Assembly (NCBI RefSeq): GCF_000723165.1
Contig: NZ_HG322949.1
Span: forward strand, 2,477,533 to 2,541,532
Direction of reading: 5' to 3'
DNA length: 64,000 nt
Source of the DNA: Janthinobacterium agaricidamnosum NBRC 102515 = DSM 9628
GTDB taxonomy: Bacteria > Pseudomonadota > Gammaproteobacteria > Burkholderiales > Burkholderiaceae_D
Shown: piece after piece, positions 9,237-62,431 of the stretch
Layout of the letters: each line of letters opens with the position of its first letter
Numbering within the stretch: position 1 is the first letter of the stretch
The notes under the pieces: generated by a model
Databases searched by the model: none
What the model was told of the DNA's origin: nothing
Seen by the model: the letters and a program-made list of their open reading frames with translations, nothing else
Translations under genes and position numbers: made by a program

Positions 9237-10555
9237 TCCGCTGGCGCTTGCGGCAAGCGCCGCAATTGCAGTTGCGCCAGCGCGCCATACAGCGGCGGGC
9301 CGAGCACCTTCGACAAGGTGCTGGCCACCACTGCGCACGCCATCAGGCTGAGCACCATGCCGTGGCCGTCGACCATTTCCATGACGATGATGAAGGCGGT
9401 CAGCGGCGCTTGCGTGGTGGCCGCCAGGAAACCGACCATGCCCAGCGCGATCAGCGCCGGCGCATGCGGGTAATGGGTCAGCAGCGCGATGTCGTGGCCG
9501 AGCGCGGCGCCGATCGACAGCGCCGGCGCAAAGATACCGGCCGGCACGCCCGACCAGACCGTCAGCCAGGTCGCCGCATATTTGAACAGCACGAACGCGC
9601 CGGGCATGGCGCCGTCTTCCAGCATGGTACGGGTGGCTTCGTTGCCGCTGCCGTAGGTGGCGCCGCCGCTGGCCACGCCGATGATTGCCACCAGCAAGCC
9701 GCACAGGCCGGCGAACAGCAGCGGATGGGCGGCGCGCCAGCGGCTGACCCGGCCGGCCGGAGCGCCGCCCAGCGAGGCCAGCAGCAAACGGGCGAACAAG
9801 CCGCCCGCCACGCCGCAGCACAAGGTCAGCAGTAAGCCGGGCCACAGCAACGCCAGGCCGATCGGGCCGGCATGGATCACGCCGAAGTGGGTGGCGTTGC
9901 CGTAGAACGATACCGCGATCAAGCCGGCCAGCACGATGCCGGCCACGATCAAGCCGCTGTTGCGCTGCTCCGGCGCGCGCGACAATTCCTCGATGGCGAA
10001 CATGACGCCGGCCAGCGGTGTATTAAACGCGGCGGCGATGCCGGCCGCGCCGCCAGCCACCAGCAGCGCGTGGGCGCTGACCAGTGCATTTTGCGGCAAG
10101 AAGCGGCGCATCGCCAGCATGACGCCGGCGGCGATTTGCACCGACGGGCCTTCGCGGCCCAGCGACAAGCCGCCCAGCAAGCCGGACGCGGTCAGTACGA
10201 TCTTGGCACAACTCAATTTCAATGAAACGAACAGCCGACGCTGGCCCGGCTCCAGCGCCGGGTCGAGCGCGGCCATTACTTGCGGAATGCCGGACCCGGC
10301 GGCGCCGGCCGCATAACGCCGCGTCAGCCAGACGATCGCCGCGCAGCACAGCGGTGTCCAACACAGCGGCATCCACCATGCCTGTCTGGCAAAGTGCATG
10401 AAGCAAGCCAGCGCCCCTTCCGCCAGCCAGGTAAACCCGACCACGGTCAGGCCGGCCAGGGCCGCCGCGCCGACCACCACGATGCGTGCCTGCCAGAGGC
10501 CGGGCGTGGCGAATTCGCGTTTGAAGGCGGAACGGATGTCGTGCGAGTGTTGCAT
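9233..10555 (-). CDS. ClC-family H+/Cl- exchanger
   Basis: 440 residues from the ATG at 10555 (an upstream in-frame ATG at 10612 adds a non-conserved leader). All ClC selectivity motifs are present: GSGIPQ, GREGPSVQ with the gating Glu, and GIFAPALSIGA. The internal proton Glu is present in FAIEEL. These residues indicate a proton-coupled antiporter rather than a channel. It is an inner-membrane protein of about ten hydrophobic segments, without C-terminal CBS domains. Such exchangers support acid resistance. The stop codon overlaps the convergent marR stop. Confidence 0.88.
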   Translation of the reverse strand: MQHSHDIRSAFKREFATPGLWQARIVVVGAAALAGLTVVGFTWLAEGALACFMHFARQAWWMPLCWTPLCCAAIVWLTRRYAAGAAGSGIPQVMAALDPALEPGQRRLFVSLKLSCAKIVLTASGLLGGLSLGREGPSVQIAAGVMLAMRRFLPQNALVSAHALLVAGGAAGIAAAFNTPLAGVMFAIEELSRAPEQRNSGLIVAGIVLAGLIAVSFYGNATHFGVIHAGPIGLALLWPGLLLTLCCGVAGGLFARLLLASLGGAPAGRVSRWRAAHPLLFAGLCGLLVAIIGVASGGATYGSGNEATRTMLEDGAMPGAFVLFKYAATWLTVWSGVPAGIFAPALSIGAALGHDIALLTHYPHAPALIALGMVGFLAATTQAPLTAFIIVMEMVDGHGMVLSLMACAVVASTLSKVLGPPLYGALAQLQLRRLPQAPAD

Positions 10556-51665: not shown

Positions 51666-52766
51666 ATGCTGGGTTTCGACATTCGGACAGGGAAAATAGT
51701 GTGGACGACGGCATTGCTTTTGTTGCTGTTTTATATGGTTTATCTGGCGTCGGTGACGATCGTCGTGATGGTGTTCGCGGTATTTTTCAGTTACCTGGTG
51801 TATCCGCTGGTGGAGCTGGCCGAGCGCCGCGCGTCGAAACGGATTCCGCGCACGGTCTGGATCGCGCTGGTGTTTGTGCTGGTGATCGTGCTGGCCGGCC
51901 TGGGCGTGGCGCTGTTCGGCAGCCAGATCCAGGCGGAAGCGATTACCCTGAGCCAAAGGTTGCCGACGCTGATCAATTCGCAAAACGTGGTCGACCGGAT
52001 TCCGTTGCCGGATGCGATGGAACCGATGCGTGCCCGCATCATGGATTTCGTGCGCTCGCAAATCGCGGCCGGTACCGACCAGGCCATGCCGCTGGCCAAG
52101 AATTTCGCCGGCGGCTTGATGCATGCGGCCGGCAACCTGATCTACATCGTGCTGATTCCGGTGCTGAGTTTCCTGATGATCAAGGAAGCGCCGGCCATGC
52201 GCGGCGCCTTGCTGGCGTGGCTGGGGCAGGCCAACCGCCGCTTGTGGGGTGGCATCATCGACGACCTCGACGTGCTGCTGTCGAAATACGTACGCGCGCT
52301 GCTACTGTTGTCGCTGGCGACCTTCATTGCCTACGGCATTGCTTTCTGGCTGCTGGATGTGCCATACGGCATGTTGCTGGCTGGTTTGTCGGCCTTGCTG
52401 GAATTCATACCGTTTGCCGGACCGCTGGGCGCCATCGTGGTCACGCTGGTGGTGGCGGTCTTCAGCGGCCATGAACACATGCTGTGGCTGGTGATCTTTT
52501 TCCTGGCCTATCGCATGTTCCAGGATTATGTCGTCAATCCCTACCTGATGAGCGAAGGCGTCGAAGTCAGCCCGCTGCTGGTGATCGTCGGCTTGCTGGC
52601 CGGCGACCAGATCGGCGGCGTGGTCGGCATCTTCCTGTCGGTGCCGGTGATGGCCGCGCTCAAAATCGTCGCCGTGCGGCTGGTTGCCGCCAAGGCCAGG
52701 AAAGCTGCCGAGGCCGAGCAGCAGGCCGCGCCGCCTGTTGATCTGGAAAAATCCGCCGTTACTTGA
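51666..52766 (+). CDS. AI-2E family transporter
   Basis: 366 residues with the PF01594 layout: two N-terminal helices, a long polar middle, then the diagnostic cluster of helices with LLAGLSALLEFIPFAGPLGAIVV and ending FLSVPVMAALKIVAVRLV. Members export small molecules such as autoinducer-2 or act as Na+/H+ antiporters; the substrate here is open. The C-terminal tail is Ala-rich and polar. Confidence 0.85.
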   Translation: MLGFDIRTGKIVWTTALLLLLFYMVYLASVTIVVMVFAVFFSYLVYPLVELAERRASKRIPRTVWIALVFVLVIVLAGLGVALFGSQIQAEAITLSQRLPTLINSQNVVDRIPLPDAMEPMRARIMDFVRSQIAAGTDQAMPLAKNFAGGLMHAAGNLIYIVLIPVLSFLMIKEAPAMRGALLAWLGQANRRLWGGIIDDLDVLLSKYVRALLLLSLATFIAYGIAFWLLDVPYGMLLAGLSALLEFIPFAGPLGAIVVTLVVAVFSGHEHMLWLVIFFLAYRMFQDYVVNPYLMSEGVEVSPLLVIVGLLAGDQIGGVVGIFLSVPVMAALKIVAVRLVAAKARKAAEAEQQAAPPVDLEKSAVT

Positions 52767-52799
52767 GTAGAATAGACCACATACTGACCAGGAGGATGC

Positions 52800-53573
52800 A
52801 TGAGCAATGCGATACACCGTGCGGCGGCCGACGGCTACACCATCAATGCCGACAGTTATGTCAAGGGCCGGCCGGATTATCCACCTGAACTCGCCGGCTG
52901 GCTGCGCGGCGCGCTGGGCTTGCACGAAGGCAGCACGGTGCTGGACCTGGGCGCCGGCACTGGCAAATTCACGCCGCGCCTGGTGGCCACCGGCGCCCGC
53001 GTGATCGCGGTCGAGCCGGTCGGGCAGATGCGCGCCAAATTGTCTGCGGCCTTGCCGCAAGTCGAGGCGCTGGCCGGCAGCGCCGAAGCGATTCCGTTGC
53101 CGGATGCGTCGCTCGACGCCGTCATTTGCGCGCAAGCGTTTCACTGGTTCGCCACGCCGGCCGCGCTGGCTGAAATCCGCCGCGTGCTGAAACCGGGCGG
53201 CAAGCTCGGGCTGGTGTGGAATATGCGTGATGCGCGGGTCGGCTGGGTGGCCAGCCTGGATGCCATCGTCAACCAGGTCGAAGGCGACACGCCGCGTTAT
53301 TACACCGGCGCCTGGCGCAAGGTATTCCCGGCGCCGGGTTTTGGACCGTTGCACGCGTCGCATTTTTCACATGGCCACAGCGGCAGCCCGGAAGACGTGG
53401 TGCTGAACCGGGTCCGTTCGACCAGTTTTGTCGCCGCATTGCCGCCGGAGCAACGCAGCAGCATCGACCGCCAGGTGGCGGCGCTGATCGCCAGTACCGC
53501 CGAACTGGCCGGCAAGGACGTGGTGACAGTGCCTTACGAAACCGCAGCGTTTGTCATCGCCAAGGAAGCTTGA
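52800..53573 (+). CDS. Class I SAM-dependent methyltransferase
   Basis: 257 residues, AGGAGG just before the ATG. SAM-binding motif I VLDLGAGTGKFTPRLVATGARVIAVEP, motif for Methyltransf_11 (SAEAIPLPDASLDAVICAQAFHWF), and post-motif LAEIRRVLKPGGKLGLVWNMRD (each a separate segment). Substrate unknown; family members act on lipids, biotin precursors or other small molecules. It lies 33 bases after the transporter gene. Confidence 0.85.
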   Translation: MSNAIHRAAADGYTINADSYVKGRPDYPPELAGWLRGALGLHEGSTVLDLGAGTGKFTPRLVATGARVIAVEPVGQMRAKLSAALPQVEALAGSAEAIPLPDASLDAVICAQAFHWFATPAALAEIRRVLKPGGKLGLVWNMRDARVGWVASLDAIVNQVEGDTPRYYTGAWRKVFPAPGFGPLHASHFSHGHSGSPEDVVLNRVRSTSFVAALPPEQRSSIDRQVAALIASTAELAGKDVVTVPYETAAFVIAKEA

Positions 53574-53613
53574 CCGGGGGGGGCGATCCGATGCGCGCCG
53601 ATATGCTGCCGGT

Positions 53614-54117
53614 ATGGAAATCCGGATGACGTCGCCATCCGTCCTGCGTCAGGTGGCGCTTGGCCTGTGCTGGGGCTTGCCGACCTATGGCGTCGGCGTG
53701 CTGGCGCTGTTGCTCGGCAAACTGATGCTGCCGCACCATTTGTGGGGCGCGGATGCCGGCGCGGCGATGTTCGAACGCGAAATGCCGGTATTCCAGCTGT
53801 TTTTCTGGGGGGTGATATATGCGCCCATCTTTGAAACGTTCGTGGGCCAATTGCTGCCGCTGGAAATACTGCGCCGCTTCGGCGCGCGCAGGGCGCTGTG
53901 CATCGCCGCCGGCGCGCTGGTGTGGGGCGCCGGCCATTATCTGTATGGCGGCATGCTGCATGGACTGGTCGCCGCCGCGTCCGGCGCACTGTTGTCGTAC
54001 ATTTACCTGCGCTACCGGGAACCCGGCGTGGCGCTCGCATATTCCACCGCGACCATCGCGCATGCGTGCAGCAATGCGCTGGTGCTGATCGTCAATTACC
54101 TGGGGCTGACAATGTGA
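53614..54117 (+). CDS. CPBP-like intramembrane protein
   Basis: 167 residues, four to five membrane helices. The order IYAPIFETFVGQLLPLEILRR, then WGAGHYLYGGMLHGLVAAASGAL, then ATIAHACSNALVLI recalls CPBP (Abi/CAAX) proteases: acidic helix, His helix and a second His helix. The usual EExxxR reads FETFVGQ, so one of the two Glu is missing. Whether it is an active protease or a degenerate homologue is open. Start at ATG 53614; ATG 53626 is equally possible. Confidence 0.6.
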   Translation: MEIRMTSPSVLRQVALGLCWGLPTYGVGVLALLLGKLMLPHHLWGADAGAAMFEREMPVFQLFFWGVIYAPIFETFVGQLLPLEILRRFGARRALCIAAGALVWGAGHYLYGGMLHGLVAAASGALLSYIYLRYREPGVALAYSTATIAHACSNALVLIVNYLGLTM

Positions 54118-54138
54118 TGCGGACACAGCCTGATGATC

Positions 54139-54168
54139 AAGGCTGCCCGGTTAACCAGGCAGCCTTTA
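54139..54168. terminator. Bidirectional terminator
   Basis: 9-bp stem AAGGCTGCC / GGCAGCCTT with an inner GGTT/AACC pairing, followed by TTATT. It fills the 54-base gap between the convergent CPBP-like and DUF481 genes. Confidence 0.82.
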
Positions 54169-54171
54169 TTC

Positions 54172-54987
54172 TCAGAACGAATACACCAGCGTCAGCGACG
54201 TTTGCGTATCGGTATTCTTCTTATCTTCCGGCACATTGCTATCGTTGCGGGCGACGAAGGCCGCCTTCATTTGCATGGTGCCGTTGATCTTGGCGCTCAG
54301 CGCCGATTCCGCGTTGGAATGCATGTTCGACGTACCGCGCTCGACGCTGAGGCTTTGCGTAAAGGTCGCCGATGAGCTGACTTTCCACTTGAACGCGGCC
54401 GCGCCGCGCACCGTCATGCCGCTTTCGGACTCGCCGGATTCGCGGATGCCGTTGAAATAACCCGGACCGAGTTCGACATCCAGGCTTTTGTCGTCGGTTT
54501 GATACCAGCGCGAGCTGTGACCGACCGCCAGTGTCGAGTATTTGGTATAGGCGCCGAATTTGTCGTTGACATGCGATGCCAGCACGAACAGTTTTGCATT
54601 GTCTTCCAGCAGCTTGTAAGCCGCTTTGGCCGACACCGAAAACCGCTCGGCGGAGCGTTCGCGGGTGCGCTGACCTTCATCGTTGGCGATTTCATCTTCC
54701 TTGAAATAACCGCTGAAGATGTATTGGTTACTCCAGTCGTCCAATTCCTGGCGCGCATCGATCTTGCCGGTGACCGAGGTGCCCTCGGTATTGCCGGAAG
54801 TCGTGATCGCGCCCAGTTCGGCGGAGGTGGCCCAGGTGCCGATCGGGACTTCGTCGAACAGGTAGCGGCTTTTTTTGACTTTGGCGGCTGGCGTGCCGGT
54901 GCTGTCTTGCGTGTCTTTGGTGTTCTCGGCGGCAGCGCCGCCGTGGGCGATGGCCAGCGCCAACGCCAGTAGCGAAAATAATTTCAT
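54172..54987 (-). CDS. DUF481 outer-membrane protein
   Basis: 271 residues with a signal peptide (LLALALAIAHGGAAA/EN). DUF481 pattern: GTWATSAELGAITTSGNTEGTSVTGKIDARQE start, repeated amphipathic beta strands and a C-terminal LTLVYSF ending in Phe, typical of an outer-membrane beta-barrel. Members are called salt-induced outer-membrane proteins; function is unsettled. It is transcribed toward the terminator. Confidence 0.85.
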   Translation of the reverse strand: MKLFSLLALALAIAHGGAAAENTKDTQDSTGTPAAKVKKSRYLFDEVPIGTWATSAELGAITTSGNTEGTSVTGKIDARQELDDWSNQYIFSGYFKEDEIANDEGQRTRERSAERFSVSAKAAYKLLEDNAKLFVLASHVNDKFGAYTKYSTLAVGHSSRWYQTDDKSLDVELGPGYFNGIRESGESESGMTVRGAAAFKWKVSSSATFTQSLSVERGTSNMHSNAESALSAKINGTMQMKAAFVARNDSNVPEDKKNTDTQTSLTLVYSF

Positions 54988-55269
54988 GTGATGTTATCTG
55001 CGACTTGCGTTCATGCGGCGAGGCATTGCGCCAGGGCACCGTATGGGCAAGCCTTCTTTCGTCAAAAAAACGCGTCCTTCAAAGATACCCCGCTACGCTG
55101 CCATGGCGTGCGGCCCTATGGCTTGATCCTGGCAGCTGAGTCCGTATTGTACCCGAGCGGCACGCTAACGTCCGCCCGGGGGGGCAACTTTTCAATTGAC
55201 GAAACGGCGCCGTTATTTTTATTGGAAACATCACCGGCGACGATTTTTTTGACAATATTTTCAGGCGGA

Positions 55270-55905
55270 TCAGCTTGCGCCGGCCAGCACCTTCATCCAC
55301 GGATAGGCCAGCGCATGAGCGGCCTCGAAGTCGCTGATCTGCTGATCCAGCTGCAAGGTCATATCGATCATGTCGATGCCTTCGACGATCATGCGCTTGT
55401 CGCGCGGGGCCAGCGTGAATGGCGTCATGCGGCCGTTGGGGCTGCCGATCGTCATGCGTTCCAGGTCGATTTCCAGGCTGGCGCTGCCGGGTGTGGCGAC
55501 GTCGGCGATCAGGTGATCGATGGCGGCCTGGTCCAGCTTGATCACCAATAAACGGTTGTTCAAGGCATTGCCAAAGAAAATTTCTCCGTAGCTCGGCGCG
55601 ATCACGGCGGCGATGCCGAATTGCTGCAAGCCCCATACCGCATGTTCGCGGCTGGAACCGCAACCGAAGTTCGAGCCGGCGATCAGGATGCGCGCGCCTT
55701 GATAAGCTGGCCGGTTCAGGATGAAGTCCGGCCGCAGCCGGCCATCGCCGTCGAAGCGCAAGTCGTACAGCACGCCCTGGTCCAGGCCTTCCTTGCTAAT
55801 CGTGCGCAAGAATTGCTTGGGCATGATCTGGTCGGTGTCGAGGTTGTCGATCAAGACCGGCGCGGCGACGCCGGCGATCTTGCCGGGCATGGTTTTGTCA
55901 GGCAT
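55270..55905 (-). CDS. leuD: LeuD-type small subunit of a hydro-lyase
   Basis: 211 residues from ATG 55905. Swivel domain of the aconitase superfamily, with NLDTDQIMPKQFLRTI, then ILIAGSNFGCGSSREHAVWGLQQFGIAAVIAPSYGEIFFGNA, in which the SREH active-site block is intact. It overlaps the leuC-like gene by 8 bases. By itself it looks like isopropylmalate isomerase, but the operon (dehalogenase-like hydrolase, LysR) lacks leuA and leuB, so the natural substrate may be another hydroxy acid. Confidence 0.85.
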   Translation of the reverse strand: MPDKTMPGKIAGVAAPVLIDNLDTDQIMPKQFLRTISKEGLDQGVLYDLRFDGDGRLRPDFILNRPAYQGARILIAGSNFGCGSSREHAVWGLQQFGIAAVIAPSYGEIFFGNALNNRLLVIKLDQAAIDHLIADVATPGSASLEIDLERMTIGSPNGRMTPFTLAPRDKRMIVEGIDMIDMTLQLDQQISDFEAAHALAYPWMKVLAGAS

Positions 55906-57364
55906 GCTGTTCTCCCAAAGTGCGCACGTCGGTGATGACACCGGTGATCGCGGCGGCGGCGGCCATGGCCGGGCTCATCAGGTGAGTGCGGCCGGCGCGG
56001 CCCTGGCGCCCTTCAAAATTGCGGTTGGTGGTCGAGGCGCAGCGCTCGAACGGGGCCAGCACGTCGTCGTTCATCGCCAGGCACATCGAACAGCCCGGCT
56101 GGCGCCATTCAAAACCGGCGTCGATGAAAATTTGCGCCAGCCCTTCCTGTTCGGCCTGGCGCCGCACGGCACCGGAGCCGGGCACCACCATGGCGCGCAC
56201 TCGCGGCGCTACTTTATGCTTGCCGACAATCGCGGCGGCGGCGCGCAAGTCTTCGATGCGGCTATTGGTGCAGGAACCGATGAAGACGCGGTCGATCGCC
56301 AGGCCGGTGATCGGCTGGCCGGCCTGCAAGCCCATGTAATCGAGCGCCTTGACGGTCATCGCCGACGCGTGCGGATCGCCGGACTGGCTGTCGCCCGGGC
56401 CGGGCACGGCGCCATTGACCGGCATGCCCTGGTCCGGACTGGTGCCCCAGGTGAGGTACGGCGCCACGTCGGCCGCGTCGAATACGTGTTCGGCGTCGAA
56501 CACGGCGCCGGGATCGGTATGCAAATCGTCCCACGCGGCGGGCAGGGTGGCGTGGCCGGCTTCATCGGTGAAACCGGCCACATGGCTGGCCAGGTAGGCG
56601 CGGGTGGCCTGGTCCGGCGCGATCAGCGCGGCGCGCGCGCCGGCTTCGACCGCCATATTGCACAAGGTCATGCGTGCCTCGACCGACAGGCTATCGATCG
56701 CCTTGCCGCAGAATTCGACCGCGTAGCCGCGCGCGCCTTGCGCGCCGATGCGGCCGATCAGGTACAGCGTCAAATCCTTGACCGAGGTGCCGGGTGGCAA
56801 GCTGCCATCGATGCGGATGCGCATCGTGCTTGCCAGCCGGTAGACCAGCGTCTGGGTCGCCATGATGTGCTCGACTTCCGAGGTGCCGACGCCGAAACCC
56901 AGCGCGCCCAGCGCGCCGTAGGTGGTGGTGTGGCTGTCGCCGCACAAGATCACCATGCCGGGACGCACCAGGCCGCGCTCCGGCGCGATGATGTGCTCGA
57001 TACCCTGGTCGGGGTCGTTGGTGTCGAACAGGCGGATGCCGAACTGTGCGCAATTACGCCGCAAATTCAGCGCCAGCAACGATGAGGCCGGGTCGAGGAT
57101 GACGCGCTGCGGCACGGCCACCGGATGGGTCGGAATGATGTGCGACACGACTGCCAGTTGCTGCGCCGGACGGCGCACGCCGTGGCCCTTGTCCTTCAAG
57201 CCCGTGAATGCCTGCGGGCTGGTGTATTCATTCATGATATGCAAGTCGGCGTACAGCAGGATGTGCTGTGCGTCCAGCCCGGCGACGGTGTGGGTGGCGA
57301 CCAGTTTGCCGTACAGTGTCCGAGGACCCTGCGGGCTGCGGTGTTCCATGCGCTGTTCCATCAT
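55898..57364 (-). CDS. leuC: LeuC-type large subunit of a hydro-lyase
   Basis: 488 residues, GGAG six bases before the ATG. 4Fe-4S cluster ligands in GSCTNSRIED and CSMCLAMN, GDSHTTTYGALGALGFGVGTSEVEH and a C-terminal FEGRQGRAGRTHLMSPAMAAAAA block. The N-terminal portion (LLYADLHIMNEYTSPQAF) deviates from the standard LeuC start (GLHLIHEVTSPQAF). It follows the dehalogenase-like gene by 15 bases. Assigned to LeuC family; substrate uncertain as for its partner. Confidence 0.84.
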   Translation of the reverse strand: MMEQRMEHRSPQGPRTLYGKLVATHTVAGLDAQHILLYADLHIMNEYTSPQAFTGLKDKGHGVRRPAQQLAVVSHIIPTHPVAVPQRVILDPASSLLALNLRRNCAQFGIRLFDTNDPDQGIEHIIAPERGLVRPGMVILCGDSHTTTYGALGALGFGVGTSEVEHIMATQTLVYRLASTMRIRIDGSLPPGTSVKDLTLYLIGRIGAQGARGYAVEFCGKAIDSLSVEARMTLCNMAVEAGARAALIAPDQATRAYLASHVAGFTDEAGHATLPAAWDDLHTDPGAVFDAEHVFDAADVAPYLTWGTSPDQGMPVNGAVPGPGDSQSGDPHASAMTVKALDYMGLQAGQPITGLAIDRVFIGSCTNSRIEDLRAAAAIVGKHKVAPRVRAMVVPGSGAVRRQAEQEGLAQIFIDAGFEWRQPGCSMCLAMNDDVLAPFERCASTTNRNFEGRQGRAGRTHLMSPAMAAAAAITGVITDVRTLGEQHA

Positions 57365-57379
57365 AGGTGACTCCTTGAT

Positions 57380-58282
57380 TCAGGCTGGCCGGACTTGCGT
57401 GGTTTCCAGCCTCAGAAACGGCAAGACTTCGGCGAGCAACGGTTCCGGTGCTTCTTCCGGGATGTAATGGCCGCATGGCAAGGCTTTGCCGCTGACTTGT
57501 TCGGCCAGCAAGTCCCATTCGGCCAGCGGGTCGAAACATTGAGCAACCACGCCTTGCGCGCCCCACAGGGCCAGCATCGGGCAAGCGATCTTGTTGCCGG
57601 CCGCCAGGTCGGTGCGTTCATGTTCCAGGTCGATGCCGGCGCTGGCGCGGTAATCCTCGCACATGCCGTGGATGGCGGCCGGATCTTGCAGGCAGCGCAG
57701 GTATTCGGCGTACGCTTGCGGCGTGAACGGCGCCAGGCCGGCGCTGCGGCCGCCGACGGTGTAGCGCAGATATGCTTCCGGGTTGCCGCCGACCAGGATT
57801 TCGGGGAAGGGCGCCGGACGGATCAGGAAAAACCAGTGGAAATACCTGGTGGCGAATTCGCGGTCGGTTTTCTCATACATGGCCAGCGTCGGCGCGATGT
57901 CGAGCACCACCAGCCGCTGTATGCGTTCGGGAAAGTCCAGCGCCATGCGGTAGGCGACCCGGCCGCCACGGTCGTGACCCATCAGCAAGAACTTGTCGAA
58001 ACCCAGCAATTCCATCAATTTGACCTGTTCGGCGCCCATGGCCCGCTTCGAGTAATTGCTGTGGTCCGGCAAGCCTTGCGGTTTGGCGCTGTCGCCGTAA
58101 CCACGCAAGTCGGCGGCGATCACCGTGAAATGTTGCGCCAGTTGCTGCGCCACCTTGTGCCAGATGACATGGGTTTGCGGATGGCCGTGCAGCAATAACA
58201 GCGCCGGACCGTCACCGCCGCGCACATAGCTCACGTCGGAACCGTCGACGGCGACCGTGTGCCTGGTGAAGTGTTCAAACAT
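57380..58282 (-). CDS. Fluoroacetate-dehalogenase-like alpha/beta-hydrolase
   Basis: 300 residues from ATG 58282 (GGAG upstream); the frame extends to 58360 without family similarity. The nucleophile elbow MGHDRGG carries Asp104 instead of Ser, with Arg105 and Arg108, HW at 149-150, Tyr211 and His272, plus Asp128. By recalled numbering, these are the residues that bind carboxylate and fluoride in Burkholderia FAcD. HGHPQTHVIW also fits the haloacetate dehalogenase branch. First gene of an operon with leuCD-like genes; divergent from LysR. Confidence 0.82.
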   Translation of the reverse strand: MFEHFTRHTVAVDGSDVSYVRGGDGPALLLLHGHPQTHVIWHKVAQQLAQHFTVIAADLRGYGDSAKPQGLPDHSNYSKRAMGAEQVKLMELLGFDKFLLMGHDRGGRVAYRMALDFPERIQRLVVLDIAPTLAMYEKTDREFATRYFHWFFLIRPAPFPEILVGGNPEAYLRYTVGGRSAGLAPFTPQAYAEYLRCLQDPAAIHGMCEDYRASAGIDLEHERTDLAAGNKIACPMLALWGAQGVVAQCFDPLAEWDLLAEQVSGKALPCGHYIPEEAPEPLLAEVLPFLRLETTQVRPA

Positions 58283-58380
58283 GCTTGTCTCCAGAAGTAT
58301 TCTTTCAGCTGCGAATTGTAGGCTGGTTTTTTGCCATATAATTCGTCGAAGAAAAACCAATTCTTTCTTTGAGATAAATA

Positions 58381-59301
58381 ATGAGCGACGTGTCGGATCT
58401 GGCGTTTTTCACCATGCTGGTCAAGCATGGCAGCCTGGCGGCGGTGGCGCGCGAAATGGGCGTCACGCCGCCGGTGGTTACCAAGACGCTGGCCAGCCTG
58501 GAACACCGGCTCGGCGTGCGCTTGCTGAACCGCACCACGCGGCGCATGAGCGTGACGCACGAGGGTGAAGTGTATTATGCCGAAGCGGCGCGCATCCTGG
58601 CCGATATCGAGGAATTGGAAAGCGCGGTGTCGCGCAGCCGGGCCGTGCCGAAGGGCTTGCTGAGGGTGAATGCGACGATCGGTTTCGGCCGCCAGCATGT
58701 CGGCCCGGCGATTGCCGAATTCGCGGCGCGGTATCCGGAAGTCGAAGTGCAATTGCATGTCACCGACCGGCCGGTCAACCTGGCCGACCAGGCGTTCGAT
58801 ATCGGCATCCGCGTCGGCGCCTTGCCGGATGCACGGATGTATGCGCGCAAGATCGCATCGAACACGCGGCGCTTGTGCGCCGCGCCGCAGTATCTGAAAC
58901 GCCATGGGCCGGTCAATACTCCGCGCGACTTGCAGCGCCACCAATGCATCGTGCTGCGCGAAAACGACGCCGCCTATGGCACCTGGAATTTGCAGCAAGG
59001 CAAAACCCAGGAAACCGTCAAGGTACGCGGCAGGCTCAGCACCAACCATGGCGAAATCGCGCTCGGCTGGGCGCTGGACGGCCACGGCATCCTGCTGCGT
59101 TCGCAATGGGATAGTGCGCCGTACCTGCGCTCCGGGAGGCTGTGCGCCGTGCTGGATGACTGGAACGTGCCGGATGCGGATATCTACGCGGTCTATCCGG
59201 AGCGGCTGAACCTGTCGGCCAAGGTGACGGCCTTGCTCGATTTCCTGCAAAAACATTTTGAGCGGCAGTTACAACGCGAGGGACTGGAAAGCGGCTGGTA
59301 G
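58381..59301 (+). CDS. LysR-family transcriptional regulator
   Basis: 306 residues. HTH GSLAAVAREMGVTPPVVTKTLASLEHRLGVRLLNRTTRRMS, then effector domain of the DsdC/AaeR-like branch (LRVNATIGFGRQHVGPAIAEFAARYP, DIGIRVGALPDARMYAR). It is divergent from the dehalogenase-leuCD operon with a 98-base spacer and is its likely regulator. The antiporter gene converges 15 bases from its stop. Confidence 0.87.
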   Translation: MSDVSDLAFFTMLVKHGSLAAVAREMGVTPPVVTKTLASLEHRLGVRLLNRTTRRMSVTHEGEVYYAEAARILADIEELESAVSRSRAVPKGLLRVNATIGFGRQHVGPAIAEFAARYPEVEVQLHVTDRPVNLADQAFDIGIRVGALPDARMYARKIASNTRRLCAAPQYLKRHGPVNTPRDLQRHQCIVLRENDAAYGTWNLQQGKTQETVKVRGRLSTNHGEIALGWALDGHGILLRSQWDSAPYLRSGRLCAVLDDWNVPDADIYAVYPERLNLSAKVTALLDFLQKHFERQLQREGLESGW

Positions 59302-59315
59302 TGTAGGCACGCGTT

Positions 59316-60614
59316 CTATTTGCGCCAGAATTTATCCAGAACTGGCGTCACGCTAGCGCCATGCACCACGATCGACAGCATGATGACCACCACCGTAATC
59401 TGGCTCAAGTCCAACGCCAGCGACGGTGGCAAGCCGTGGTTCAGCGCATACATCAGGTAATACACCGAACCGATGCCGCGCACGCCGAACCAGGCGGCGA
59501 TGCGGCGCATCTTGCGGCTGGCCGCGGCGCCCGATCCCGCCAGACCCAGCATGACGCTGAGCGGGCGGGCGATGAAGAACAGGAATAGCGCGCTGCCCCA
59601 GGCGCGCCAGTTCCACGCATCGGCAGTGATCGCGCCGCCGAGCAGCAATACCAGCGTCAATTCCGACAGGCGCTCCAGGTGCTCCTTGAAGATCAGCGAT
59701 TCGCCGCTGACCGTGCGCGGCGCGTCGTCAAGGGAAGCGCTGGCTGACGGGACATGCAGCGCTTCCGCCTGCAGCAAGCCCTGGCGGTCTTTCGGCGCGC
59801 CGGACAGCACCAGCTCCGTATGCCGCAGCGCGACGCCGGCAAAAAACACCGCCAGGAAACCCCATGCCTGCAGCGCCAGCGCCGCGCCGTACACGGTGGC
59901 GATCAGGCCCAGCCCGGCCAGGTCGTCCAGCACTTCGTGTTTCGGCTCCTTGCCGCGCAATTGCCAGCTCAGCCTGGCCAGCGCCGCGCCGCCGGCCAGG
60001 CCGATGGCGATCGCGCCGCCGGTGGCCCACAGCAAGTCGAGCAGCACCCAGCGCACGCCGAAATCGCCTAATTCGTGCAGCCCCAGCAAGCCCAGCCCCA
60101 GCATCACGAAAGGAAACGCGCTGCCATCGTTCATGCCCGCTTCGCAGGTCAGCGCAAAGCGCAATTGATCCTTGTCGCCGGCGTGGCGCACCTGCACGTC
60201 GGTGGCCAGCACCGGATCGGTCGGCGCCAGGATCGCGCCGAGCAGGATGCCGGCGCCGAGCGGCAAGCCCAGCATGAAATAAGCGTAAGCGGCCATCAGC
60301 GCTACCGACATGCTCATCGACAGCCAGGCCAGCCGGATCGACGGCGCCCAGCGCTGCAGGCTGAACGGCACCGGCATCTTGACGCCGGCCGAAAACAGCG
60401 AAATCAGCACGGCGATTTCGGCCAGTACTTCCAGCAATGCCGACTGCCGGTACAGATTGAATGAAAACAGGCCGAGGCAAACCGGGCCGAGCAGCAAGCC
60501 GACGCCGAGGTAGACCATCGCCGAACTGGCCGGCAAGCGCGCCAGCGTGGTGGCCGCCAAGCCGCGCGCCAGCATCAGGATGCCGATCAGGATAAACCAG
60601 TGGGTGGTGGTCAT
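59316..60614 (-). CDS. Cation:proton antiporter (CPA1/NhaP-like)
   Basis: 432 residues, about twelve hydrophobic segments. Na+/H+ exchanger signatures: LLGAILAPTDPVLATDVQV and EAGMNDGSAFPFVMLGLGLL (the ion-binding ND pair), and AWFGVRGIGSVYYLMYAL. Exports Na+ or K+ in exchange for protons. A soluble insert (residues about 270-300) is present. No CorC/TrkA domains. Confidence 0.85.
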   Translation of the reverse strand: MTTTHWFILIGILMLARGLAATTLARLPASSAMVYLGVGLLLGPVCLGLFSFNLYRQSALLEVLAEIAVLISLFSAGVKMPVPFSLQRWAPSIRLAWLSMSMSVALMAAYAYFMLGLPLGAGILLGAILAPTDPVLATDVQVRHAGDKDQLRFALTCEAGMNDGSAFPFVMLGLGLLGLHELGDFGVRWVLLDLLWATGGAIAIGLAGGAALARLSWQLRGKEPKHEVLDDLAGLGLIATVYGAALALQAWGFLAVFFAGVALRHTELVLSGAPKDRQGLLQAEALHVPSASASLDDAPRTVSGESLIFKEHLERLSELTLVLLLGGAITADAWNWRAWGSALFLFFIARPLSVMLGLAGSGAAASRKMRRIAAWFGVRGIGSVYYLMYALNHGLPPSLALDLSQITVVVIMLSIVVHGASVTPVLDKFWRK

Positions 60615-60678
60615 GATGGGGCGCGGTGGCGCGTAACAGACAGGCGGCCGATTGTAGCGGTCAACTATTGCGGGCGGC

Positions 60679-60748
60679 GCGCGCGAGGCGGTGCGCGCGA
60701 GGCGGGGCGCGCGAGGCGGGGCGCGCCAAGTGGGGCGCGCGAGCGCCG
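60679..60748. repeat. 14-bp GC-rich minisatellite, five copies
   Basis: Units GCGCGCGAGGCGGT, GCGCGCGAGGCGGG twice, then the diverged GCGCGCCAAGTGGG and GCGCGCGAGCGCCG. It fills the space between the MscS stop and the antiporter start on the minus strand, so it lies in the antiporter's upstream region. The 14-bp period is not a codon multiple, so it is non-coding. Confidence 0.8.
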
Positions 60749-60755
60749 CCCGCCT

Positions 60756-61901
60756 TCAGGCCGGGCCGGGGCCGGCCAGGATTTTGTCCAGCCGCACTGC
60801 CGGATACGGCTGCTGGTCCTTGCCGGCCGCCTGTACCGTCAGCGGATCGAGCGACGAGCGCAGCCGTGGCAAGCCTTCCGGATGATGTTGGGCGATAAAA
60901 GCGATGATCGCTTCGCGCACGATGCAGCGCAATTCCAGCACATCGCCCGAATTGCGCGCACTGATCATCAGCCGCAATTGCATCGCGCGCTCGTTCGAAT
61001 CCGTCACTTGCACCTTGCAGACCCGCTCATCCCATTGCGGCGCTTCCTTGCAGATCCGTTCGAATTCGGCGCGCAGCGGCGCCAGCGGCACCTTGAAATC
61101 CATCCACAGGAAAACGGTGCCGAGCAGCGTGGTCGAACTGTGGGTCCAGTTTTCAAACGGATTTTCGATAAACCATTGCAGCGGCACGATCAGGCGGCGC
61201 TCATCCCAGATGCGCACCACCACATACGTGCCGGTGATTTCCTCGACCCGGCCCCATTCGCCGTTGACGATCAGCACGTCGTCGATGCGGATCGGTTGCG
61301 AAAACGCGATTTGCAGGCCGGCGATGAAGTTGCCCAGCACCGGCCGCGCCGCGATACCGGCCACCAAGCCAGCCACGCCGGCCGACGCCAGCAGGCTGGC
61401 GCCGATCTGCCGCGCGCCCGGCAGCGTCAGCAGCACGAACGACAGGCCCAGTATCACCGCGATGGTGTGCGCGCTGCGCGCCAGTACCCGGGTCTGGGTA
61501 ATCATGCGGCGCGCCTTCAGGTTGTCGGCCACGTCGACCGGATGCAGTTCGGCGATGGTGACGCTGACCGACTCGATGCATTGCATGGCGAACCAGGTCA
61601 GCGCCAGGATCAGCGCCACATTGGCGATATGCGACATGCCGAGCAGCCACGGCGTATCGTCCGGCGCGCCGGTCAGCACCAGCCGCAGCGCGAACAGCAG
61701 CAGGCACAGCTGACTGGCGCGGAAGGCGATGCGGGTCGCGGCGCTGGTGAACGGACGGTTGCGGGCCAGTCGGCGCAGCAGCGAAATGCTACCGCGGTGC
61801 AGCACCAGCGCCAGTATGGCGGCCGTCATCGCGCTGACCAGAACCATCAGGCCGGAGCGCAGCGGCCCCTCGTGCAAGCTGTCCATCAAGCTGAAATCCA
61901 T
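60756..61901 (-). CDS. MscS-family mechanosensitive channel
   Basis: 381 residues from ATG 61901 with AAGGAG 9 bases upstream. Four to five membrane helices, then the pore helix and beta domain: GASLLASAGVAGLVAGIAARPVLGNFIAGLQIAFSQPIRIDD, VEEITGTYVVVRIWDERRLIVPLQWFIENPFENWT (both split). Larger than E. coli MscS, akin to YnaI/YbdG-type. Inner-membrane pressure valve. Confidence 0.88.
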   Translation of the reverse strand: MDFSLMDSLHEGPLRSGLMVLVSAMTAAILALVLHRGSISLLRRLARNRPFTSAATRIAFRASQLCLLLFALRLVLTGAPDDTPWLLGMSHIANVALILALTWFAMQCIESVSVTIAELHPVDVADNLKARRMITQTRVLARSAHTIAVILGLSFVLLTLPGARQIGASLLASAGVAGLVAGIAARPVLGNFIAGLQIAFSQPIRIDDVLIVNGEWGRVEEITGTYVVVRIWDERRLIVPLQWFIENPFENWTHSSTTLLGTVFLWMDFKVPLAPLRAEFERICKEAPQWDERVCKVQVTDSNERAMQLRLMISARNSGDVLELRCIVREAIIAFIAQHHPEGLPRLRSSLDPLTVQAAGKDQQPYPAVRLDKILAGPGPA

Positions 61902-62431
61902 AGGCGAAAACTCCTTCTTGTGATTGATCTGGATGTCGGAAGCCCTCCATTCTAAAGGGTGTCGCGGTGACAAGACCGTACTGTAGAGAATTGCTGGCGA
62001 TGCAGGAACGCCTGGCAAGCCGGCCGTCGGCGGCACGGCATCGCTGTTTGCCGCTGCAACCCAGCCCGGAATTTCAGTGATGGCGACGTTATCGATAACA
62101 TTGTTTTCAAATCGAGGCCCGAATGACTATTTTGCCTTGGTTCGGGCCAAAATCGAGGATCTTAAACTTCAATAATGTTGTATTTGCGCAATAGTATACA
62201 CATCCTCATATTTCTTTCTAGAAATTCGTTGCCATAGGAAACCATTGGGATAATAATTCTTCGTGGAAATACTTAGCGCTGCCTTAAAAAGTGTTAAACC
62301 TGCTTGACAAGGCGGTTTTTGAAAAGGCGATTGAATGTTCAAATGATCGCCGCCGCCAGATGCAAGCTTCCGATGCCATGCCGCCGACTGCAATCCAGCG
62401 GCCGGCGTAGTTATTTTCTTTTTGGTGACTA
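61902..62431. other. Divergent intergenic region between MscS and the GH2 gene
   Basis: A 530-base non-coding stretch. It contains the GTTATCGATAAC palindrome at 62088-62099, an 8-bp hairpin GGCCCGAA / TTCGGGCC at 62116-62148, and an AT-rich 62150-62330 segment. No ORF with a ribosome-binding site was found. Confidence 0.5.
62088..62099. promoter_or_regulatory. LacI-type operator candidate upstream of the GH2 gene
   Basis: GTTATCGATAAC is a perfect 12-bp palindrome within ACGTTATCGATAACATT, the symmetric core seen in many LacI/GntR-family sugar repressor operators. It lies 333 bases upstream of the GH2 start. No LacI gene is in the window, so the partner is unknown. Confidence 0.4.

Follow-up and report, generated by a model that had tools for sequence, protein, structure and literature searches.

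A Fluoroacetate Dehalogenase-Like Hydrolase Linked to a Second LeuCD Pair in Janthinobacterium agaricidamnosum: A Possible C4-Dicarboxylate Catabolic Operon

The window analyzed here, a stretch of 64,000 nucleotides from the genome of Janthinobacterium agaricidamnosum (contig NZ_HG322949.1), carries the gene of a fluoroacetate dehalogenase (FAcD)-family hydrolase in one unit with a paralogous LeuCD pair and a divergent LysR-type regulator. The reading placed first, favored tentatively and at somewhat less than even confidence, is that of a LysR-controlled operon for the catabolism of C4-dicarboxylates. The hydrolase would open an epoxysuccinate-type (less likely a halosuccinate-type) acid, most simply to tartrate, and LeuCD would convert the latter to oxaloacetate; these are the substrate, the product, and the LeuCD reaction that we infer for the operon. 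The everyday job of the FAcD-like hydrolase is probably the opening of malate- or tartrate-like acids and not the destruction of fluoroacetate.

FAcDs serve as model enzymes for biological C–F cleavage. If members of the family are, in many lineages, wired to tartrate and malate chemistry, genome and metagenome annotations such as “fluoroacetate dehalogenase” or “defluorination potential” would in many cases be misleading. The FAcD and LeuCD families are themselves known, and no earlier report of their link was found. In literature searches with subscription journals outside their coverage, no report joined “fluoroacetate dehalogenase” with “isopropylmalate”, “haloacetate dehalogenase” with “3-isopropylmalate dehydratase”, or, among the papers listed, tartrate dehydrogenase with the dehalogenase names, and LeuC with tartrate and fitness returned only an unrelated study of shield-bug microbiota.

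Gene Order of the Operon

FAcD was found in 4 of the 37 genomes of the genus that were searched. The features of the window locus are the following:

54172..54987, minus strand: DUF481 protein; each of the four genus members with the module has it 0.3–0.7 kb from leuD
55270..55941, minus strand: small (swivel) subunit, paralogous to LeuD, of at most 223 aa; AVWGL replaces APWAL after SSREH, and GL replaces GF in the PKQFL loop
55898..57364, minus strand: LeuC paralogue, large subunit of the aconitase family, 488 aa, with 53% identity to the canonical LeuC of the genome
57380..58282, minus strand: FAcD-family alpha/beta hydrolase, 300 aa, with D104, R105, R108, D128, H149, W150, Y211, and H272 present
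58283..58380: divergent intergenic region, with sequence blocks that recur in the three congeners carrying the module
58324-58331 and 58352-58359: inverted repeat TGGTTTTT/AAAAACCA between LysR and FAcD, a candidate LysR site
58381..59301, plus strand: LysR-type regulator, divergent; TtdR ranks best among the listed NCBIfam models (259 bits; cut-off 398, not reached)

The layout agrees with the original prediction: FAcD is followed after 15 bases by leuC, leuD overlaps leuC, and the LysR gene is divergent. The order LysR, FAcD, LeuC, LeuD, and DUF481 is identical in the three other holders of the genus, and it is uncertain whether the DUF481 protein is part of the module.

Distribution of the FAcD–LeuC Linkage

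The survey of the family comprised 392 genomes, with FAcD accepted at E ≤ 1e-65 and close LeuC at E ≤ 1e-180. FAcD was present in 116 genomes and close LeuC in 51. At 22 of the 51 LeuC loci, FAcD precedes LeuC in the same orientation at a distance of at most 113 bp. The linkage, for whose gene order a search had been suggested, is widespread. FAcD lies 0.7–0.8 kb downstream at two further loci and 2.3 kb away at one, and the remaining 26 are unlinked, some of them with FAcD on another contig, where a contig break is possible.

A second set consisted of named FAcD loci (the best 80 of 570 confirmed). LeuC is found within 4 kb in 36 of these, in four arrangements, and tartrate dehydrogenase within 6.5 kb in eight (2–29 bp in five, 3.4–3.8 kb in three). 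Neither partner is present in another 36, including one locus (L174) whose contig ends inside its leuC. About half of the surveyed FAcD loci have neither LeuCD nor tartrate dehydrogenase.

The FAcD–LeuCD pair is carried, among others, by Collimonas, Herbaspirillum, Paraburkholderia, Caballeronia, Burkholderia, and Cupriavidus, as well as by Achromobacter, Halotalea, Rahnella, Pseudomonas, and Pseudocolwellia, and it is also plasmid-borne in Pantoea, Methylobacterium, and Klebsiella pneumoniae. On the K. pneumoniae plasmid pBckp206-2 (NZ_CP050847.1), an MFS–leuC–leuD–FAH–FAcD–LysR operon is placed between IS elements and near pco copper-resistance genes (L236). FAcD occurs in 55 Klebsiella plasmid records, with the gene context read in one.

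Among 159 mapped FAcD loci, those with LeuC within 6.5 kb have FAcD first in 40 cases, last in 16, divergent in two, and convergent in three; these counts contain duplicate genomes because the genome sets overlap (e.g., L134 and L157). The variety of arrangements suggests that the linkage was assembled repeatedly, gain and loss not being separable on the tree. On the FAcD tree (quick method, LG+G4, 129 labelled tips), LeuCD linkage changes state no fewer than 24 times and tartrate dehydrogenase linkage no fewer than 11 times, compared with means of 40 and 17 after shuffling. The linkage is thus partly inherited.

Tartrate Dehydrogenase and Other Partners

At five Halomonadaceae loci, LysR and FAcD are followed 2–29 bp downstream by a tartrate dehydrogenase. 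The two tartrate dehydrogenases tested, L148 with 580.7 and Ruegeria L241 with 558.8, both pass the curated cut-off of 470.4. The units of FAcD and tartrate dehydrogenase (TIGR02089), such as those of Halomonadaceae (L203) and Ruegeria (L241), resemble the window in placing an FAcD-type hydrolase beside an enzyme for 2-hydroxy-diacids, and L203 also has the divergent LysR; they differ in having an oxidative enzyme where the window has LeuCD. Tartrate dehydrogenases also act on D-malate.

A further sample was an even draw of 398 genomes across the phylum, which was searched with the FAcD of the Klebsiella plasmid at E ≤ 1e-80. FAcD was found in 29 genomes at 30 places, two of them in one genome (G557), and 29 places were fetched, the excluded one being that of the window's own genome. 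Five places are linked to LeuC, nine to tartrate dehydrogenase (eight within 56 bp, one at 1.1 kb), and 15 to neither. In the 159 mapped loci, duplicates included, FAcD is first in 14 of the linkages with tartrate dehydrogenase, last in five, and convergent in three.

Aconitase-family proteins of other types are also found next to FAcD. Two loci (L187 and L165), with FAcDs of 69% identity, encode directly upstream of FAcD a fused protein of 653 aa in which the swivel domain precedes the large domain; tartrate dehydrogenase is 3.4–3.5 kb away and LysR 3–5 kb away. At one locus, FAcD adjoins a homoaconitase-type protein. A genome of 1.8 Mb has an FAcD (43%) divergent from a gene resembling homoaconitase or archaeal-type LeuC (L053). 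The 83 flanking genes of 44 representative unlinked loci revealed no shared partner other than LysR (5), as judged from the best 25 of 97 families and with genes from a heuristic caller.

Transporters and Regulator

The further company of the linked genes comprises transporters and enzymes of organic acids. A DctA-type symporter follows leuD immediately at nine loci, TctC binding-protein genes are included in four FAcD–LeuCD operons, and a 2-hydroxycarboxylate transporter (2HCT) is located between leuD and FAcD in L123. The mqo gene is divergent to leuC in L237, L244, and L285, and the Klebsiella operon includes an FAH-family gene. The closest model of the window regulator, TtdR, is an activator responding to L-tartrate. 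Taken together, the transporters, mqo, FAH, and the TtdR-like LysR point to C4 hydroxy-diacids. The caution that the LeuCD pair might use a different hydroxy acid is the best-fitting part of the original prediction.

Proposed Mechanism

In the proposed mechanism, Asp104 would act as the nucleophile at the carbon adjoining the carboxylate, which Arg105 and Arg108 would hold, while His149, Trp150, and Tyr211 would stabilize the leaving oxygen or halide. Water activated by His272 would then release the product, a 2-hydroxy or 2,3-dihydroxy diacid; with epoxysuccinate as the substrate, this would be tartrate. LeuCD would dehydrate tartrate to enol-oxaloacetate, and in other bacteria tartrate dehydrogenase would perform the second step by oxidizing or decarboxylating tartrate. 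Such a scheme would account for the mutual replacement of LeuCD and tartrate dehydrogenase, and for the recurrence of C4 hydroxy-diacid transporters. A halosuccinate would give a similar picture, whereas a haloacetate does not account for the partners.

The trans-epoxysuccinate hydrolase EC 3.3.2.4 converts epoxysuccinate to meso-tartrate and would perform the proposed step, and its tie to the window gene is put forward as a proposal. To our knowledge, it is an orphan enzyme with no gene, and we know of no LeuCD homologue characterized as a tartrate dehydratase.

A precedent for dehalogenase-type enzymes that open epoxysuccinate may be seen in the L-tartrate-forming epoxysuccinate hydrolases, which share about 30% identity with L-2-haloacid dehalogenase, a member of another dehalogenase family (PMC6429283). 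A natural source of the substrate is also plausible, since a second study describes trans-epoxysuccinate as a fungal product and the start of the E-64 pathway, with homologues of the E-64 gene cluster in hundreds of Ascomycetes (PMC12568646).

The proposal may be extended, more doubtfully, to the FAcD family at large. For much of the family, the native task would be the opening of C4 epoxy-diacids (e.g., fungal trans-epoxysuccinate) rather than C–F cleavage, with the resulting tartrate passed to tartrate dehydratases of the LeuCD type or to tartrate dehydrogenase, and defluorination would be a side activity; we consider this generalization rather unlikely. If true, it would assign a gene to the orphan trans-epoxysuccinate hydrolase and a role to second copies of LeuCD, such as the supQ/newD enzyme of Salmonella; which gene opens trans-epoxysuccinate and what such copies do, both old questions that are open as far as we know, would become directly testable.

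The Hydrolase and the Question of Haloacids

The window hydrolase matches solved FAcDs in overall fold and sequence relation. Its predicted Asp-His-Asp triad, Arg pair, and His-Trp-Tyr halide site are complete, and every residue named in the original prediction as part of the defluorinase set is indeed encoded. When the window protein and those of 130 loci were aligned, D104, R105, R108, W150, Y211, and H272 were invariant (131/131), D128 differed in one member, and H149 was Trp in eight, with the halide pocket His/Trp/Tyr retained in 123. This near-invariance marks the residue set as a general signature of the family, which therefore cannot name the substrate or separate haloacetate from other alpha-substituted acids. 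Five of the eight Trp variants are LeuCD-linked (5/57 linked FAcDs), and linked members can thus dispense with part of the halide site.

The closest known enzymes are the FAcDs RPA1163, Burkholderia FA1, Delftia D4B (9c9f), and Daro3835. The window gene differs from them in being placed in an operon with LeuCD and LysR, with no fluoride-resistance genes found beside it. FAcDs are also the nearest structures, with 58% identity to 9c9f. This entry, deposited as a fluoroacetate dehalogenase, shares 77% identity with a LeuCD-linked protein (L124); LeuCD-linked FAcDs may therefore well defluorinate. Next are the “putative epoxide hydrolases” 4b9e and 4bau of Pseudomonas aeruginosa, solved with bound MFA, probably monofluoroacetate. 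These labels were dropped as support for epoxide opening because some of the entries contain MFA. Cif-type epoxide hydrolases open epoxides by a His/Tyr pair. Arg179 of the window hydrolase, which stands at Trp185 of RPA1163 and is likewise Arg in 9c9f, was rejected as a marker of LeuCD-linked enzymes: it is similarly common in linked (52/57) and unlinked (51/60) FAcDs and is thus a clade trait.

The complete residue set, the nearest structures, and the MFA-bound entries are all in accordance with the alternative that survives best, namely the detoxification or use of fluoro- or chloroacetate. FAcD would then yield glycolate, and LeuCD would be a spare or protective enzyme of the aconitase family. 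In a recent article, FAcDs are taken to have evolved on fluoroacetate (PMC12350541). Nevertheless, we consider this alternative unlikely as the explanation of the operon, given the persistence of the LeuCD linkage where His149 is Trp and the following observations on the genes around it.

In the described fluoroacetate cluster of Caballeronia sp. S22, FAcD is accompanied by an aconitate methyltransferase, a fluoroacetyl-CoA thioesterase, and CrcB (PMC11812338). The window has the FAcD homologue in common with this cluster, for which no LeuCD is described, and its other neighbors differ. A tblastn search of the window and 177 loci, run with two CrcB sequences of Burkholderiales, detected no CrcB, although it recovered three control loci; distant CrcBs could escape it. 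CrcB was also absent from the window's own genome (PF02537 search) and from its three congeners that carry the module. No Rfam family, fluoride riboswitch included, reached the threshold at 53000-62000 of the window, and the only match in seven related loci was one tRNA. No thioesterase was found among the neighbors scanned from 51666 to 62036, and the 25 families most often encoded next to unlinked FAcDs do not include glycolate oxidase.

In favor of the original prediction, a class I (Methyltransf_11) methyltransferase is encoded on the opposite strand at 52800-53573, beyond leuD and DUF481 in the downstream direction of the operon. The best 25 of its 27 matches include no aconitate methyltransferase model, and a homologue was found near none of the 177 other loci. 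Elsewhere in the genome, CrcB was detected at E ≤ 0.001 in 17 of 26 genomes, 16 of which also exceed the cut-off; the set combines G157 with 25 genomes in which LeuC and FAcD are at most 2.3 kb apart. Moreover, the window's own genome encodes outside the window, at 2629567, a protein with GNNLL/GREGT motifs which we take to be a CLC-F-like transporter, and fluoride export may therefore be possible. The argument that the absence of CrcB proves the absence of fluoride handling was rejected on these two grounds. A canonical CLC chloride channel (GSGIP/GREGP) is encoded at about 9311-10345 of the window.

A fluoroacetate-detoxifying purpose of the FAcD–LeuCD link is thus not supported. From the proposed detoxification or haloacid unit, the FAcD family, the single unit with a hydratase pair, and the divergent LysR stand, while the reasoning from fluorocitrate and aconitase is not supported, given the missing CrcB and riboswitch and the different company of S22.

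The catabolism of halosuccinate or halomalate, in which the halide on a C4 diacid would be replaced to give D-malate or tartrate for LeuCD or tartrate dehydrogenase, shares the C4-diacid company with the epoxysuccinate reading, and the halide pocket is retained in 123 of 131 members. The eight members devoid of His149 fit it poorly, as would a D-malate product, since its conversion to maleate by LeuCD would be a poor next step. We assign it a low probability.

The LeuCD Pair as a Second Copy

The genome of 5.95 Mb (one contig) contains four aconitase-family loci, one of which, at about 3.94 Mb, consists of canonical leuC and leuD with an adjoining Iso_dh-family ORF. The window pair is therefore a paralogue of this leuC-leuD-leuB-type locus. 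As had been claimed, leuA and leuB are absent beside the window pair, the leuB-type ORF being at the canonical locus, and the concern that this leuCD might be the only copy, next to leuB, is removed. Both pairs are two-subunit enzymes of the aconitase family: for the TIGR00170 leuC model (cut-off 560), the canonical LeuC scores 789 and that of the window 606, and the window LeuD scores 196 with TIGR00171 (cut-off 116). Unlike the LeuCD of leucine biosynthesis, the window pair is a second copy with catabolic company, and its LeuD has the AVWGL motif and the GL loop. Val and Gly after SSREH are found in all 83 LeuDs that best match the window query. Among the 17 that best match the canonical query, Pro occurs in 12 and Ala in 14, at least three of the 17 (L216, L292, and L298) being catabolic-type copies beside FAcD.

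It is also conceivable, at a probability that we consider quite small, that LeuCD hydrates citraconate, maleate, or citramalate, with FAcD as a loosely associated enzyme of side activity under a shared regulator. At L128, L132, L133, L136-L142, L144-L146, L242, L243, and L245, LeuCD is accompanied by 2HCT or TctC while FAcD is missing from the stretch, which indicates that LeuCD can work without a neighboring FAcD, and the 26 of 51 family LeuC loci unlinked to FAcD are in agreement. Ten of the listed loci (L132, L133, L136-L140, L142, L243, and L245) are LysR–LeuCD–2HCT units, a separate and probably hydroxycarboxylate-catabolic cluster of LeuCD. Such a role leaves unexplained both the four arrangements of the FAcD linkage and the linkage of FAcD with tartrate dehydrogenase elsewhere. 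A reserve isopropylmalate isomerase for leucine synthesis, which the LeuC score above the cut-off would allow, was rejected as very improbable, given the higher-scoring canonical copy with its Iso_dh-family ORF, the changed LeuD residues, and the different partners.

The supQ/newD enzyme of Salmonella is presumably a second LeuCD copy; a literature search on it gave no match. The LeuCD-linked protein of Klebsiella shares 76% identity with the structure 4nvr, a “putative acyltransferase” of Salmonella enterica whose gene presumably belongs to the leuC2-leuD2 (supQ/newD) region.
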